Positions 20,417 through 34,814 of a stretch of DNA of 39,193 nt are shown in pieces (the stretch's first letter is position 1; every line of letters starts with the position of its first letter). The stretch lies in contig SUUL01000008.1 of NCBI GenBank assembly GCA_015062545.1, positions 1 through 39,193 on the forward strand. The letters are read 5' to 3'. The DNA comes from Alphaproteobacteria bacterium. Lineage in GTDB: Bacteria; Pseudomonadota; Alphaproteobacteria; Rs-D84. Both the position numbers and the translations under genes were made by a program. The notes beneath the pieces were generated by a model, which had not been told where the DNA came from, did no database searches, and saw nothing but the letters and a program-made list of their open reading frames with translations.

Positions 20417-20502
20417 TTTTCTTTCCTTTCGTTTTTATTGCCTTTGGCGCTTATGGCGGTCATCGGCATGGTTAGTTAGTTTTTTTCAATCCGTTTTTAT
20501 TT

Positions 20503-21765
20503 TTAGTTAGAAGACAATGGTAAACCTGTCAGGACGTTTGTTACACCATCTGCACCAACAATTTCAATTGCTGTATAAGAAATGTTTTCACCGTCATTTG
20601 TTACCAAGAAGCTGCCTTCACCCATGGATGCCTTGCTCAAAGAATTTTGCTGCAAGGTTTCAATGTTGCCTTGGGCCGCTTCAATCGCAGCTTCATTTGC
20701 AGATACACGACCTGCCAATGGTGTGTCATCATATGCCGCCGCTTCAATTGCCGCATTCATTTGTGCTGTTGTTGAATAGTCAGCAATATTTGCATTGCCC
20801 AACTGTTCCTGCAATGTATCAATTTCGCTTTCAGCTGTGTCCAAATCACCTGCGATTGTGTCAACACGTGCAGACAACGCAGAAACGTTTGTACCCGCGC
20901 TGGCCAATTCATTCTTCAAGCCTTCAACCGAGTTAGCCACAGACCCAACCGTATCTTTGTCACCATTCAAAACTGCAATTGCTGCTTCGTTTGCATCGGC
21001 TTTGTCAGATACAGCATCAACTGTTCCTTCCAACGCTTCCAAATCAGTCTGTGCAGCCTTGCCTGCAATATCAGCTGTGTTCTGTTGAATCGCAGATGAC
21101 AATGCGCTGTCGTCATATGTATATGTAGAATTGATTTTCAATTCACCGGTTGTTTCATCTGTTGTAATCGAGATGTTTTCCCCAGCAGTCAATTTATCTT
21201 GTTTTGTTTCAGCCAATGCTTTCGCCTCATTCGCCGCAGTTACCGCATTGCCAGCCGCTGTTTCAGCACGACTCGCTGCCGCATCTGCTGTATTTGCAAC
21301 CTCCACTGCTGAATCCGCTGCTTCCTTGGCTGCATTCGCAGTAGATGTCGCTGTTGCTGCTGCATCTTTTGCTTCTTGTGCCGCTGTACCAGCTGCCGTT
21401 GCTGCTTCTTGTGCAGCACCCGCCGTACTTACAGCCTGACCAGCCTGTGTGACTGCATCCGCTGCATCTGAAGATGCTTGATTTGCAACAGATTCAACCG
21501 CTGCAATTGCAGTAGCAATCTGACCACCTTCTGCCAACGCACCAGCAATTTCGCCCGCTACGTCAACTGTGGAACTGATGACACCGCCTTCAATTTTGAT
21601 GCCAGCACCAGCATTGTCTTCATCCAAAAGATCCTGCTTCTTGCCCATTTCTGCAACAACATATTCCTGACTAGCCAATTTATATGCCGCCGCGTCTGCC
21701 GCACCGCATACCCCAGCCAAGATTGCTGCTGCAAATCCTGAGAACGCTATATTTTTTACTTTCAT
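20503..21765 (-). CDS. Secreted Ala-rich coiled-coil protein (cluster member 5)
   Basis: This 420-residue protein starts MKVKNIAFSGFAAAILAGVC, sharing its first eleven residues with member 4 although the codons differ. KLASQEYVVAEMGKKQDLL follows. Residues of about 90-180 are an almost pure Ala-rich helix with many short repeats of the A-A-x-x-A type, then KQDKLTAGENISITTDE, a small beta-like insert like those in trimeric adhesin stalks. Further coiled coil ends in SLSKASMGEGSFLVTNDGE and a beta-like tail instead of the Cys pair. AAGGAAGG precedes the ATG. Function is unknown. Confidence 0.75.
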   Translation of the reverse strand: MKVKNIAFSGFAAAILAGVCGAADAAAYKLASQEYVVAEMGKKQDLLDEDNAGAGIKIEGGVISSTVDVAGEIAGALAEGGQIATAIAAVESVANQASSDAADAVTQAGQAVSTAGAAQEAATAAGTAAQEAKDAAATATSTANAAKEAADSAVEVANTADAAASRAETAAGNAVTAANEAKALAETKQDKLTAGENISITTDETTGELKINSTYTYDDSALSSAIQQNTADIAGKAAQTDLEALEGTVDAVSDKADANEAAIAVLNGDKDTVGSVANSVEGLKNELASAGTNVSALSARVDTIAGDLDTAESEIDTLQEQLGNANIADYSTTAQMNAAIEAAAYDDTPLAGRVSANEAAIEAAQGNIETLQQNSLSKASMGEGSFLVTNDGENISYTAIEIVGADGVTNVLTGLPLSSN

Positions 21766-27955: not shown

Positions 27956-27980
27956 AAAAATGCCCATACGGGCATTTTTA
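27956..27980 (-). terminator. Intrinsic terminator of tolB
   Basis: TGCCC (27961-27965) and GGGCA (27970-27974) pair around ATAC with A and T runs on both sides. It lies at the stop codon of tolB. Confidence 0.8.
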
Positions 27981-29297
27981 TGGCAATCTGGGCGACCAAG
28001 TTGGCTCTAACCCATACACACCTTCTGGCAATTCAATATCATAGATATTCTGCCCTGTGATGTCAACGCTGCGAATGTGACTAATACGTTCTATATCATC
28101 CATCGCCTTTTCTGTCTCATAGTACACAATACGGCGCGACCCCGGGGCCCAAGATGGCGCTTCCATAAACCAACCGCCAGCCAAGATTTTTTCATTCCTG
28201 CCACGCGGGTCCATAATCCCAACATAAAATGTATCATCCGCAATCTTGGTAAAGGCAATAAATTGTCCATCCGGTGACCACGCAGGTGTCGCATATCGCC
28301 CTGCCCCATACGTAATACGCTCAACCTCGCCAGATTCTAAATCCAAAACATGAATTTGTTGACGACCCGACCGGTCTGAATTAAACGCCATTTTTTTACC
28401 ATCTGGCGAATAAGATGGACTGGTATTAATTGAATTTCCGAACGTTAATTGACGTAATTCCTTGGTCAAGGTATTAAATTCATATATATGTGTAATACCA
28501 TTTTTCACCAAAGAAATGGCCACCTTGGTACCATCTGGCGAAAAGCGTGGCGCAAAGTTCATACCACCAAATTGTCCCAAACGTCTTTGTTCACCAGTAT
28601 CCAAATCCAGACTCCACACCATCGGATCATCATTATAATATGACAAGAAAACAATAGATTGCATATTTGGCGAAAAATGTGGCGACATAACAAAAGTATC
28701 AGCATCAGACAAATACCGCATACCATACCCATCTTGATCCATAATTGCCATACGTTTCGTACGTTTTTGTATTGGTCCAGATTCTGCAATAAATACAATT
28801 TGCGTATCAAAATACCCGATTTCCCCAGTTAATCTTTCATATATTGCATCCGCCATAATATGTGCCAATCTGCGTACAGATTTTTTTGATGCAACCAAAG
28901 ATTGCGCTTCTATCTGTTCGCACCCATTCACATCCCACACAAAGAAATCAAGTTTATATTGACCATTTTGTGCAAGATTCATTTCCGCCTGAACCAAGAC
29001 TTGTGTTTTTATTGCCTGCCAAGATTTAAAATTCGGCATGGCATGCATTTTTACATATTCTGGGAACGCATTATGATTCACGATACGAAATAATCCAGTA
29101 CGTTTCAAGTCCGCCTCTACCACTTCACGAATTGTGGCGGCATCTGCACTTTTTACCCCGTTGCCCAGTTCAAACTTTTGTACAGCGATTGAAATTGGAT
29201 CTGTGCCACCCGCAACAATATCCACCTTTAATTCAGCATTTGCCGTCCCAATCATACACAAACAGGCAAAACAGCATAAAATAATTTTTTTCAACAT
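27978..29297 (-). CDS. tolB: Periplasmic Tol-Pal protein TolB
   Basis: TolB is a periplasmic beta-propeller that shuttles between Pal and TolA and so times outer-membrane constriction. The 439-residue protein has a signal peptide (MLKKIILCCFACLCMIGTANA), an N-terminal alpha/beta domain (about 22-165) and WD40-like blades recognised by SPDGTKVAISL, YSPDGKKMAFNSDRSG and WSPDGQFIAFTK. AAGGA lies before the ATG. It is monocistronic here, separated from pal, and tolQ, tolR and tolA are not in the window. Confidence 0.95.
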   Translation of the reverse strand: MLKKIILCCFACLCMIGTANAELKVDIVAGGTDPISIAVQKFELGNGVKSADAATIREVVEADLKRTGLFRIVNHNAFPEYVKMHAMPNFKSWQAIKTQVLVQAEMNLAQNGQYKLDFFVWDVNGCEQIEAQSLVASKKSVRRLAHIMADAIYERLTGEIGYFDTQIVFIAESGPIQKRTKRMAIMDQDGYGMRYLSDADTFVMSPHFSPNMQSIVFLSYYNDDPMVWSLDLDTGEQRRLGQFGGMNFAPRFSPDGTKVAISLVKNGITHIYEFNTLTKELRQLTFGNSINTSPSYSPDGKKMAFNSDRSGRQQIHVLDLESGEVERITYGAGRYATPAWSPDGQFIAFTKIADDTFYVGIMDPRGRNEKILAGGWFMEAPSWAPGSRRIVYYETEKAMDDIERISHIRSVDITGQNIYDIELPEGVYGLEPTWSPRLP

Positions 29298-29410
29298 GAT
29301 ATATATCCTTCACTTTCAATAAACACACACCCCAATTTTATATCTAATAAACACAAAATGCAAGCAACACAACCATCCACACATCCGTCAGCACACCAGT
29401 CATTACGCAT

Positions 29411-29442
29411 GTAAATATATTTGTATTGACAAATGTATTTAC
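29411..29442. promoter_or_regulatory. 32-base palindromic operator over the RHH-DinD-like promoter
   Basis: GTAAATATATTTGT (29411-29424) and ACAAATGTATTTAC (29429-29442) are inverse copies with 13 of 14 matches around a 4-base centre. The -35 element lies inside it. Ribbon-helix-helix proteins bind such palindromes as dimers of dimers, so autoregulation by the downstream gene is likely. Confidence 0.7.
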
Positions 29443-29453
29443 AATGGTATAGT
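29426..29453 (+). promoter_or_regulatory. Promoter of the RHH-DinD-like operon
   Basis: A perfect TTGACA (29426-29431) and TATAGT (29448-29453) are separated by 16 bases, about 45 bases before the RHH start codon. No LexA-like box is apparent. Confidence 0.7.
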
Positions 29454-29498
29454 TCTTTGTAAAGACTACAGTATTGCAACATGTATAGGAGATTGCAT

Positions 29499-29723
29499 AT
29501 GCCAAACGTTATGCAGCAATTATTCATTATGAATATTGAAACATTGCTGAAAGAATACGCCGCATACAAGGCGTTTAACAAATCCGATTGTGTTATCAAC
29601 ATGCGTATTCCACGCCCTATCTTGGACAAGATAAAAGAACTGGCGGACACACAACACGTCCCTTACCAATCATTAATATCATCGGTTTTATTTTCTTTGG
29701 CGAACCTTGAAGACAACAAATAA
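29499..29723 (+). CDS. Ribbon-helix-helix (CopG-like) DNA-binding protein, antitoxin-like
   Basis: This 74-residue protein has a C-terminal ribbon-helix-helix: the strand CVINMRIP, helix RPILDKIKELADTQHV and helix PYQSLISSVLFSLAN. The PYQSLI turn is typical of CopG/BrnA-type antitoxins. The N-terminal 30 residues are helical. AGGAG lies 7 nt before the ATG at 29499, so the earlier in-frame ATG at 29481 is not used. It starts a two-gene operon with the DinD-like gene 16 bases downstream, and the promoter carries a palindrome that could be its operator. An antitoxin role is inferred from this layout. Confidence 0.75.
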   Translation: MPNVMQQLFIMNIETLLKEYAAYKAFNKSDCVINMRIPRPILDKIKELADTQHVPYQSLISSVLFSLANLEDNK

Positions 29724-29739
29724 CCCAAAAGGCACCACA

Positions 29740-30672
29740 ATGCAACCAACCAACGATATCATTTTTAACAAACTAAACGAAGGTCGCCATACTACCGCCG
29801 CTACATTACAACAATTAGACATGTTTTCGGATATCCCCACCCCCACAAACACCACACCCACAGAATATTGGTACTATTCTGATTTACACAACCTGTTTGG
29901 AGAAACAAGTTTTCCCACAACCCCAGCTCCAAAAAAGGCACAATTACACACATGGCAAAAAATGTATGCCCCGCAAGTATCATCAACCACCACACAAACC
30001 AACCTATACAATTCCCACACAGAAATCACATACCGTTCATTTTTTCTGGGTGGCACACACTTCAAAAATGCCCAAGACATAAAACTGTCACGTTATGCAT
30101 GTTGGTGTCTGTCACGCAACAACCCATCCTTGGCATTTGCGCGCGCATATTTTCTGGCCCCTGTCATAACGCCAAACGCGACATTAAAAGACATCCAGAA
30201 TTATTCCTATCAAATATCTCGCATACACCTGCGTGAAACATTAAAACAATATGAAAAAAACCTGGCTGGAATTCTGAACAGATACCATGCAGACTTTTCA
30301 CGTTTCAATCACAGTATGACAATGGGCTTCTTTTATGGATACAGTGCAAATGACTTAAAAAATCATTACAACATCCCATCACGCAACAATGACCCACTGG
30401 CAAATTATATGGGATGCTTTTCATTGTACGCGCGCATCAACGCATTACACAAAACAATCTATCGTTTTAATACATCGCCGGTTAAAAACGCAGAAACAAT
30501 TTATTCTATCCTGCACCAGGAATTAATCCAAGAACGCGTTAACATGCTAAAAAAACACGGCATCGCCCCTGAACAAGACATTCATTCAACCAGTGTTACC
30601 AAAGTTGAATCACAATTAAAACAAACCGAAAAAGAATTTATTAAAAAATTTGCAAACCAAAAATTAAGATAA
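29740..30672 (+). CDS. DinD-like protein (DNA-damage-inducible protein D family)
   Basis: This 310-residue protein matches the DinD layout. It has an N-terminal BRO/KilA-N-like domain with EYWYYSDLHNLFG and the hallmark DIKLSRYACWCLSRNNPS followed by ARAYFLAP. An R-x-x-L-R-x-x-L-K helix comes next (RIHLRETLKQYEKNLAG), then a region like DinD's 'FQ..GY.GLY....' (FFYGYSANDLKNHYNI, NYMGCFSLYARI) and a charged C-terminal helix. In E. coli, DinD is SOS-induced and interferes with RecA filaments. That role has not been shown here. AAAAGG lies 8 nt before the ATG. Pairing with an RHH gene suggests regulation other than LexA. It ends at a terminator. Confidence 0.75.
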   Translation: MQPTNDIIFNKLNEGRHTTAATLQQLDMFSDIPTPTNTTPTEYWYYSDLHNLFGETSFPTTPAPKKAQLHTWQKMYAPQVSSTTTQTNLYNSHTEITYRSFFLGGTHFKNAQDIKLSRYACWCLSRNNPSLAFARAYFLAPVITPNATLKDIQNYSYQISRIHLRETLKQYEKNLAGILNRYHADFSRFNHSMTMGFFYGYSANDLKNHYNIPSRNNDPLANYMGCFSLYARINALHKTIYRFNTSPVKNAETIYSILHQELIQERVNMLKKHGIAPEQDIHSTSVTKVESQLKQTEKEFIKKFANQKLR

Positions 30673-30687
30673 ACAAACACAAAATTA

Positions 30688-30714
30688 AAAAACGCGGGCT
30701 TAACCCGCGTTTTA
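30688..30714. terminator. Bidirectional terminator
   Basis: AACGCGGG (30691-30698) and CCCGCGTT (30704-30711) form an 8-bp stem with A-rich and T-rich sides. It lies between the convergent DinD-like and VirB2-like genes. Confidence 0.85.
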
Positions 30715-31089
30715 TTATTTAAAAATATTGACCTCACAGCCTAACGAGCCACCTTCGCCCGCCATCTGCATAAAGATTTGTAACACAGTACCGATTGAAA
30801 ACAACAAAATAAACCCTAGCAACATACCAAAACCTTTTTCTTTTACTTCTTTGGTAATATCTACGGCTTTGCCACCAGATATATATCCCCATGCCCAACC
30901 AGCAATACTGATACCTGCACCAATAAATGCCAATGTACGCATCAAATTAAAAATATAACCAAATTCATTTGCCAATGTACAAATACCTTCCATTCCCTTG
31001 GACGAAGCCGCGCCACCCGCCGCCATAACCCGGGACGATGCCATAATACCAACAATCGCGAAATTCAGTTTATATATTAACTTTTTCAT
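30715..31089 (-). CDS. VirB2/TrbC-like small membrane protein
   Basis: This 124-residue protein has a signal-peptide-like start (MKKLIYKLNFAIVGIMASSRVMA) and two long hydrophobic segments (about 45-68, LMRTLAFIGAGISIAGWAWG, and 85-110, GFGMLLGFILLFSIGTVLQI) separated by a short charged loop (KAVDITKEVKEKG). This is the layout of the VirB2/TrbC pilins of type IV secretion. No other type IV secretion gene is near it, so it may be an orphan or serve another membrane role. AAAGGAG precedes the ATG. Two Cys lie outside the segments (GICTLA, LGCEV). Confidence 0.55.
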   Translation of the reverse strand: MKKLIYKLNFAIVGIMASSRVMAAGGAASSKGMEGICTLANEFGYIFNLMRTLAFIGAGISIAGWAWGYISGGKAVDITKEVKEKGFGMLLGFILLFSIGTVLQIFMQMAGEGGSLGCEVNIFK

Positions 31090-32813: not shown

Positions 32814-33932
32814 TTACATGCGCATTGGCATCAACACATACAACGCATCCGTATCTTTATCGGTTGAGTTAATTTTAGTTGGAGCCAACGGATCTTGCAT
32901 TTCCATCTGGAACTTTTCGCCTTCTACTTGACCGGCAACATCCAACAAGAACTTAACGTTAAAGACAACCGTGAACGAACTGTCGCCATTGTATTCAATA
33001 TCCAATTCTTGGGTCGCAGTACCTGCATCTGGACTGGACGCATTGATAACCAATTTATTCATACTGAATGTCAACTGTACAGACTTTGTCTTGTCAACAC
33101 TTGCCACAGAAACCAAGTCAACAGCATTGATAAATTGCTTTCTATCCAAAATAGCAATCTTGTCATTACCCTTTGGAATCACAACGCGATAGTTTGGATA
33201 TTGCGCATCCACCAATTTGCTGGTTAATGTTGCACAACCAACTGTAAAACGTGCCTTGGTATCAGATAATTCAACCATAACATCATCGACATTGGCATCT
33301 TCCAACAATTTTGACAATTCACCAATCACACGTCTTGGCAAAATAACCGCAGGCATTTCCACGCTGCCGGCTGGTGCAGGCATTGCACACAACGCCATAC
33401 GTTGCGCATCCGTTGCAACTGCTGTTAACTTTTTCACATCACCATCATCTGCGATATGGAAATAAATCCCCCCCAAATGATAACGAACATCATCTGTTGG
33501 AATTGCAAACTTGGTTTGATTAATCAAGTGCGCCAAATCCCCTGTTGTCATCTGGAATTTTGTGGTCAAATTACTGCCCGCCATGGCTGGGAAATTTTCC
33601 GCAGGCAACGTTGGCAAACGAAATACTGCACGCCCACTTGATACAACCAGTTGATCACCAGACTGCTTAAAAGAAATTTCTGCATCATCTGGTAATTTAC
33701 GAACGATATCATACAACATCTGCACTGGCACAGTAATCTTTCCCCCCAGTGTGATATCGGCCGCAACATGTTCAACCAATTCCAAATCCACATTCGTTGC
33801 AGACAACACCAAATCATCTGCCACATCCAACTTTACATTCATCAATATCGGCAGTGTTGCGCGCTTTTCTACAATAGACTGCATATGCCCCAGCGCACGA
33901 ATCAAATCCTGACGAAATACAGAAAATTCCAT
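32814..33932 (-). CDS. dnaN: DNA polymerase III beta subunit (sliding clamp)
   Basis: DnaN forms the dimeric ring that holds DNA polymerase III on DNA. The 372-residue protein has three similar clamp domains. It starts MEFSVFRQDLIRALGHMQSI, has LPRRVIGELSKLLED in the linker region, and ends with the clamp C-terminus DALYVLMPMRM. CAGGAG lies upstream of the ATG. A TTGCAC-TACAGT promoter is visible. dnaA, gyrB and recF, common neighbours, are absent, so dnaN stands alone here. Confidence 0.97.
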   Translation of the reverse strand: MEFSVFRQDLIRALGHMQSIVEKRATLPILMNVKLDVADDLVLSATNVDLELVEHVAADITLGGKITVPVQMLYDIVRKLPDDAEISFKQSGDQLVVSSGRAVFRLPTLPAENFPAMAGSNLTTKFQMTTGDLAHLINQTKFAIPTDDVRYHLGGIYFHIADDGDVKKLTAVATDAQRMALCAMPAPAGSVEMPAVILPRRVIGELSKLLEDANVDDVMVELSDTKARFTVGCATLTSKLVDAQYPNYRVVIPKGNDKIAILDRKQFINAVDLVSVASVDKTKSVQLTFSMNKLVINASSPDAGTATQELDIEYNGDSSFTVVFNVKFLLDVAGQVEGEKFQMEMQDPLAPTKINSTDKDTDALYVLMPMRM

Positions 33933-34032: not shown

Positions 34033-34057
34033 CAAAGAAATCCCCAAAACGGGGATT
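34033..34057 (-). terminator. Terminator of the rluC-asmA-cdaA operon
   Basis: AATCCCC and GGGGATT (34039-34057) pair around AAAAC at the cdaA stop codon. The minus-strand transcript then has a T-rich stretch with one interruption. Confidence 0.65.
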
Positions 34058-34814
34058 ACTTATTTAATACTTTTTCTAATTTAGTGCGCAATTTTTTCAT
34101 ATCGTCATATTTGGTAAATTTACCTTTTTCTGCGATTGAAATATCGCCACTTTCTTCGGACACGACTAAAACCACCGCCCGTGAAACCTCGCTTATTCCC
34201 AACGCAGCACGATGACGCGTACCATATTTCCAATTCAAATTATTTTGTGACAGCGGCAAAATCGCCCCCGCATACGATATGCGATTATTTTCAATAATGA
34301 CCGCCCCATCATGCAATGGTGTCTTGTTAAAAAATATTGTCAGCAATAATTCTGAGCTAATACACGCATTTAACACAACACCCTTTTTTTCTATCACACT
34401 GTCATCCAGCAATCCTAAAAAAACAATCAATGCCCCCGTACGTTTGACAGACATATATTCAACTGCAGACACAATCGCATCCAACGACTTGGTATCCTTG
34501 GATTTAACACCACCTTTTTGAAACATGCGCCGCCATTCTTCTATATTCCCCATCAATGCCATAAACTTGCGCAACTCGGGTTGAAAAACGACAATCAAGC
34601 TGATTGATAAAAACAATGCCACCCAATGCAAAAATGTTGCGATTAACCCCAAACCAATCCACGACAAAACAAAGCTTAACATCCATAACAACGCCAGCCC
34701 CAACAATCCACGAACTAATTTTTCAGACTGTGTATTACGAATAAAACTGCGATAAAACAGATACATCATACCCGCAATAAAAACGATTTGAACAAAGTCC
34801 ATCCAATTAAACAT
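34056..34814 (-). CDS. cdaA: Diadenylate cyclase CdaA (c-di-AMP synthase)
   Basis: CdaA makes the second messenger c-di-AMP from two ATP at the inner membrane. The 252-residue protein has three N-terminal membrane segments (about 8-22, 35-57, 60-77) and a DAC domain. The catalytic motifs are intact: TPLHDGAVII (DGA at 169-171) and KYGTRHRAALGISE (RHR near 200-202). It follows the AsmA gene with a one-base gap, and its ribosome site lies inside that gene. The usual partners cdaR and glmM are not here. c-di-AMP synthases are common in Gram-positives but uncommon in alphaproteobacteria. No c-di-AMP phosphodiesterase or receptor is visible in the window. Confidence 0.92.
   Translation of the reverse strand: MFNWMDFVQIVFIAGMMYLFYRSFIRNTQSEKLVRGLLGLALLWMLSFVLSWIGLGLIATFLHWVALFLSISLIVVFQPELRKFMALMGNIEEWRRMFQKGGVKSKDTKSLDAIVSAVEYMSVKRTGALIVFLGLLDDSVIEKKGVVLNACISSELLLTIFFNKTPLHDGAVIIENNRISYAGAILPLSQNNLNWKYGTRHRAALGISEVSRAVVLVVSEESGDISIAEKGKFTKYDDMKKLRTKLEKVLNK

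Follow-up and report, generated by a model that had tools for sequence, protein, structure and literature searches.

On the plus strand of the window, which is the whole 39,193-nucleotide stretch of DNA analysed here, a gene for a small RHH protein (ATG at 29499, stop ending at 29723, 74 aa) is followed after exactly 16 bases by a gene for a DinD-like protein, here called dinD (ATG at 29740, stop ending at 30672, 310 aa). A CopG-like and a DinD-like gene separated by this gap had been proposed in the first-pass annotation, and both open reading frames and the gap are confirmed; the RHH protein scores 35.2 bits against PF12441 (CopG_antitoxin), above the cut-off of 28. A sigma-70-type promoter precedes the RHH gene on the same strand (29426–29453), with TTGACA at 29426, a 16-nt spacer, TATAGT ending at 29453 and a TG extension (11 of 12 matches), and these hexamers are also found in the aligned promoters of congeners. 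The −35 had been reported to lie in a palindrome with 13 of 14 matches. It does, and the palindrome is longer than first described (29410–29443, 15-base arms with 14 matches and a 4-base spacer); when the intergenic region was shuffled 300 times, 14 of 15 matches per arm were never reached.

The divergent neighbour of the RHH gene, in the window and in the congeners read, is an ORF on the minus strand (27978–29297) that we take from its sequence to be tolB. Downstream, a stem-loop terminator-like site (30689–30713, scored on both strands) lies between dinD and a convergent gene on the minus strand (30715–31089) for a small membrane protein, presumably TrbC/VirB2-like, which marks the site with or without dinD. 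The TrbC/VirB2-like gene is found in nearly all genus members searched, with a second copy in some species, and is nearly absent from other families of the order. Further along the window, an ORF on the minus strand (34056–34814), which by eye we liken to a CdaA-type diadenylate cyclase, lies near a DnaN-like ORF (32814–33932); to our knowledge, c-di-AMP synthesis is unusual for an alphaproteobacterium.

The 12-bp array at the RHH promoter

The palindrome amounts to about three units, the most regular part, of a candidate operator array with a 12-bp period. Nine contiguous, in-phase 12-bp units with the consensus ACAnnnGTAWWK occupy 29369–29476 on the plus strand and read ACAACCATCCAC / ACATCCGTCAGC / ACACCAGTCATT / ACGCATGTAAAT / ATATTTGTATTG / ACAAATGTATTT / ACAATGGTATAG / TTCTTTGTAAAG / ACTACAGTATTG; two weaker units extend further, to 29500. 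Each unit has AC at positions 1–2 and GT at positions 7–8, alternating every 6 bases as contiguous inverted hexads, and the core GTAWWKAC recurs every 12 bp across the promoter, with both the −35 and the −10 inside the array. All nine units reach or exceed the 99th percentile of the single-unit score distribution across the genome.

The lag-12 autocorrelation of the RHH promoter region averages 0.53 over 30 genomes, with z = 7.0 in the window genome (G000) and 4.2–8.4 in the other 29. In the four genomes tested in full, shuffles gave lag-12 means of 0.25–0.27 and maxima of at most 0.41, and the observed value was not attained at any lag in 1,000 shuffles. Two genomes, G000 and G003, were scanned with PWMs that had each been built without the genome being tested: the RHH promoter gave six-unit scores of 58.5 (next best −0.2) and 56.4 (next best 1.3), respectively, and no multi-unit array was found elsewhere in either genome, leaving this promoter as the sole site. 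A spaced-pattern search over the congeners likewise placed the array essentially only there. Array length differs between genomes in steps of about 12 bp, and the distance from array to start codon is 57–58, 70–72 or 83–84 depending on the species, that is, it shifts by about one or two units, which is what a functional array gaining and losing units should show. It appears to be the autoregulatory operator of the RHH protein, which would bind it and repress transcription. The autoregulatory look of this promoter, already remarked upon in the first-pass annotation, is supported by a promoter-covering array at the RHH gene in each of the 30 readable congeners.

By analogy, the closest regulatory precedent is E. 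coli RelB–relO (relBE), where an RHH repressor also meets contiguous 12-bp palindromic sites with inverted TGTA-type hexads over the promoter, and where the two 12-bp half-sites bound by RelB must adjoin without any spacing (PMC2812701). The array described here may be regarded as an extended version, differing in that it has nine or more sites rather than two and that the partner is a DinD-like protein, often absent, and not RelE. Repeat arrays through which RHH proteins also autorepress are known from centromere-binding proteins (PMC5016525), and the RHH protein and its array could in principle form a segregation site of the ParR/parC or ParG/parH kind. We consider this extremely improbable, as no ParA- or ParM-type NTPase ORF, which a partition system calls for, lies beside the RHH gene in the window, and the origin, as judged from GC skew, lies close to parB and some 200 kb away from the array.

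The array also lies between divergent promoters, and with tolB as the neighbour in the congeners read, the main job for which the RHH protein is retained could be control of the tolB promoter, with dinD as a passenger. The tolB promoter itself lies past the far end of the array, and the distance from the array to the tolB start ranges from 71 to 214 nt (by a rough start call); in many genomes the array does not come near this promoter. Direct occlusion was rejected because these distances are not conserved, and control of tolB as the main function is quite unlikely.

The RHH gene and dinD across the genus

The window genome (0.94 Mb, 15 contigs) belongs to the genus Candidatus Enterousia, whose members are uncultured alphaproteobacteria of the gut and have genomes of about 1 Mb. 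The RHH gene is present in 33 of the 34 other genus members searched, in two of them only as contig-end fragments, and where complete its product is 68–96% identical to the window protein, with the first 30 residues almost invariant across the genus. The 30 congeners read share the order tolB (divergent), RHH, dinD where present, and convergent TrbC-like gene, the exceptions being G019, whose far side is rearranged, and a few genomes in which a contig ends. Conserved adjacency of the RHH and DinD-like genes, which the first-pass annotation had expected, holds in one direction: the RHH gene lies directly upstream at 34 of 34 DinD-like loci of the genus (GTDB r220), truncated by a contig end in two. 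It breaks in the other: of 30 congeners with the RHH gene and array, 13 have no dinD and one more retains only a remnant. The RHH promoter apparently drives dinD as well in slightly more than half of the species. The remnant (G005, L028) is an in-frame stretch of 54 codons that keeps the C-terminal end of dinD beside an intact RHH gene and array, which points to a recent loss. At the usual dinD site of another congener (G014, L049; 1760–2372 in RHH orientation), a pair of genes that by eye we take to be Phd/RelE-like lies between the RHH and TrbC-like genes.

Mapped onto a tolB tree, the presence of dinD requires about 7 changes, although the tree has many weak branches and its starred branches alone force only 3. 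The array does not shorten after dinD loss (9.4 units in genomes with a solo RHH gene versus 8.2 in paired ones), and RHH identity is 0.86 in both groups. As conservation of the RHH gene and array is the same whether or not dinD accompanies them, the RHH protein must have a use that is independent of DinD. The DinD-like proteins, at 28–44% identity, are the variable partner, whereas the RHH protein is the conserved one. We conclude that dinD is a dispensable, fast-evolving accessory cargo that has been repeatedly lost, and that the RHH protein is the core component, presumably an autorepressor.

These patterns bear on the toxin–antitoxin plan read into the locus at first pass. Under a type II reading of this kind, the RHH protein would neutralise a toxic DinD-like protein and repress the operon, and solo RHH genes would be leftover antitoxins. 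The PF12441 membership, the gene order, the promoter-overlapping operator and the presence of the RHH gene upstream of every DinD-like gene in the clade all fit such a type II system, and DinD is listed by PADLOC as a candidate defence gene. Genes of a type II pair are expected to be kept together, and the 13 congeners that retain the RHH gene without dinD argue that this is not an obligate toxin–antitoxin pair. Leftover antitoxins should moreover decay, yet the RHH gene and array have persisted undiminished through repeated losses; the RHH protein is nearly invariant against a highly divergent DinD, and no RHH gene was seen at 16 canonical DinD loci elsewhere in the class. The toxin–antitoxin plan is therefore not upheld, and we regard it as unlikely.

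As to the family relations of the RHH protein, PF12441 is matched above cut-off by 33 of 59 relatives. Outside the genus, it is closest to BrnA/CopG antitoxin-like proteins, whose genes are mostly preceded not by DinD but by what we recognised from translations, using no HMM, as presumably BrnT-like genes. The locus differs from BrnT–BrnA (PF12441 / NF047399) in that the RHH gene comes first and in the genus-specific, invariant N-terminal segment of its product. No BrnT gene was found adjacent to the RHH gene of the window, and its neighbours are tolB and DinD-like or TrbC-like genes. Residues 4–26 of the RHH protein are predicted, with low confidence, to be helical, followed by strand–helix–helix. 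This N-terminal segment more likely serves RHH–RHH contacts on the array, or binding of a core partner, than binding of DinD, because DinD varies and is often absent. A monomer model of the RHH protein had a pLDDT of 68, too low for its structural matches to homeodomains to be retained, and a clamp-type motif in the N-terminus (MQQLF) was dropped since its Q is not at position 1.

The DinD-like protein and its candidate clamp-binding motif

The DinD-like protein matches the NCBIfam DinD model (NF008573) over residues 28–303, almost its full length, with an E-value of 1.9e-19, and scores 70.1 bits against an equivalog cut-off of 242. It also matches the PADLOC candidate PDC-S13 (E 4e-27) and phrog_8036 (E 9e-22). 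By sequence similarity, it is a divergent relative of DNA-damage-inducible protein D and belongs to the DinD superfamily in a wide sense. It shares with E. coli DinD the near full-length HMM match, and differs from it in its position far below the cut-off, the RHH operon, an additional N-terminal clamp-type motif and the lack of a Bro-N match. For E. coli DinD itself, a modulator of RecA filaments, an interaction with these filaments has been reported, according to the passage of PMC4457935 that cites this work. Two genus members carry second, canonical DinD copies at other loci (G012, L020; G025, L023), which are shorter (281 aa) and have no RHH partner. A RecA gene is present in the window genome, and a loose regular expression, which is not decisive, found no S24-type LexA candidate there. 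A role of the module in DNA damage or against phages is possible.

Phage P22 offers a further parallel, as in its immI region arc, a gene for an RHH repressor, lies directly upstream of ant, a gene for an antirepressor-type protein, in one operon. The RHH and DinD-like genes share this arrangement and could be a phage-derived, chromosome-domesticated pair in which a Bro-N/antirepressor-type protein inactivates a repressor. Consistent with this idea, the RHH protein weakly matches Arc (E 0.033), and a canonical DinD of the genus weakly matches the PHROG anti-repressor Ant (E 0.025) and has Bro-N (PF02498), found in the copy tested, that of G012. The window protein, however, has no sequence match to Bro-N, and fold searches with the corresponding region gave no clear match; a Foldseek search with its predicted model (pLDDT 91.6 overall, residues ~21–40 of low confidence) returned no significant match and no confident viral fold match. 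The locus also lies among housekeeping genes and not in a prophage, and it differs from immI in being a chromosomal core locus with a long array and DinD in place of Ant. Such a phage-derived origin is very unlikely.

The predicted C-terminal helical domain of the DinD-like protein (residues 155–272) aligns with residues 110–223 of DdrC (Z 11.4, rmsd 2.4 over 111 residues), and three DdrC entries rank first, at 9% identity and a Foldseek E-value of 1.0. Helical bundles often reach such Z values through common or chance arrangements, and this resemblance of a predicted model is a lead only. DdrC of Deinococcus radiodurans binds and condenses DNA (PMC5436757).

Residues 25–29 of the DinD-like protein, QLDMF (codons 29812–29826, plus strand), lie in a loop with a pLDDT of 57–60 and form a candidate beta-clamp-binding motif. 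Relatives have QLSLF, QLDLF, QFSLF, QESLF or QPTLF at this position, and QL[S/D]LF or QxxLF is the published beta-clamp-binding consensus (PMC12309361). Among 39 DinD-like proteins, QxxL/MF occurs in 13 (0.47 expected from shuffles), a stricter form in 12 (0.03 expected) and the looser xx[SDTNA][L/M]F in 29; the Q at position 1 is missing in about two thirds, and the whole motif in a few. The strict motif is rare among six-frame ORFs: in G000 it is found only in the DinD-like protein and one spurious-looking ORF of 81 aa, and in G003, a genome without dinD, it occurs only at the C-terminus of a protein that we read as MutS-like. Ten canonical DinD sequences could be read, and the motif is absent from all of them. 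QLDMF is thus what is expected of a beta-clamp client, a consensus motif in a predicted disordered region, and its absence from canonical DinDs together with its place in the loop suggests that the DinD-like protein docks on DnaN through this putative motif. Among the papers searched, two mention DinD together with the sliding clamp, and neither has DinD as its subject in title or abstract.

Possible further targets and a proposed mechanism

Genome-wide, paired GTAWWKAC boxes with a 3- or 4-base spacer occur only in the RHH array (G000), upstream of a gene here called gene X (G003) and upstream of dnaA (both genomes), and shuffled genomes contain no such pairs. Gene X encodes 111 aa and is divergent from mraZ; NCBIfam and PDB sequences gave nothing on its family, and a weak match to FtsK_gamma (E 0.037) was set aside. 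In 29 of 30 congeners, the start of gene X is preceded at 62–76 bases by the arrangement GTAAATAC-N4/5-GTNNNTAC, two GTAAATAC-type boxes 12–13 bp apart; in the window genome this site lies at G000:C2, about 20500–20560 (L275, L309). Eleven relatives that have no RHH gene also lack the boxes, although most of these relatives have a diverged gene X adjoining mraZ. Upstream of dnaA, a 19-bp palindrome GT[AC]TATACANTGTATA[TG]AC is found in 8 of 8 congeners, namely G000, G003 and six more (G000:C10:10832; L336–L341; G003:C1:180205). The gene X boxes and the dnaA palindrome are possible further targets of the RHH protein. Since the gene X boxes of about 40% of congeners are spaced by 13 bp in place of 12, and those of the dnaA palindrome by 11 bp, another factor could own these boxes; the tie to the RHH protein moreover comes from one clade and is essentially one evolutionary event. 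A regulon sought through two-unit PWM matches at other genes was rejected, as these did not exceed a shuffled genome, and the genes sharing such matches between G000 and G003 (24 rows) overlapped at about the level of chance.

On the whole, we lean modestly towards an explanation with two parts: a clade-core RHH autorepressor that acts on the 12-bp array, and dinD as an accessory cargo whose product is recruited to the clamp. RHH dimers would sit side by side on the contiguous 12-bp sites, over the −35, the −10 and their flanks, and close the promoter cooperatively in proportion to the RHH level; dilution or removal of the RHH protein would open it. Where present, dinD would be co-expressed from this promoter, and its product would probably be recruited to replicating or repaired DNA via the QxxLF-type motif and act there on intermediates of recombination or replication. 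The RHH gene and array would be retained for a job independent of DinD, perhaps control of gene X and possibly of dnaA. An autoregulated RHH operon and a DinD-like protein are each of a known kind. A joint reading, in which a clade-specific RHH master repressor with a long ladder of sites also governs the gene X and dnaA boxes and the DinD-like protein docks on the clamp, is rather doubtful; if true, it would link the control of division and replication and add to DinD a previously undescribed branch that is coupled to replication.

Two things that seemed fused at first look now come apart: a DinD-like cargo that can be dispensed with, and a probable RHH autorepressor that is conserved and has an extreme array. 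With some nine sites and whole-unit differences between species, the array offers a natural series for studying how an RHH repressor counts sites and binds them cooperatively, and the clamp-type motif would give the poorly understood DinD family a concrete route to replication forks. Little is known about regulation in gut bacteria with reduced genomes, and the boxes shared by dnaA and the neighbour of mraZ suggest that a small core regulon may exist in these organisms.
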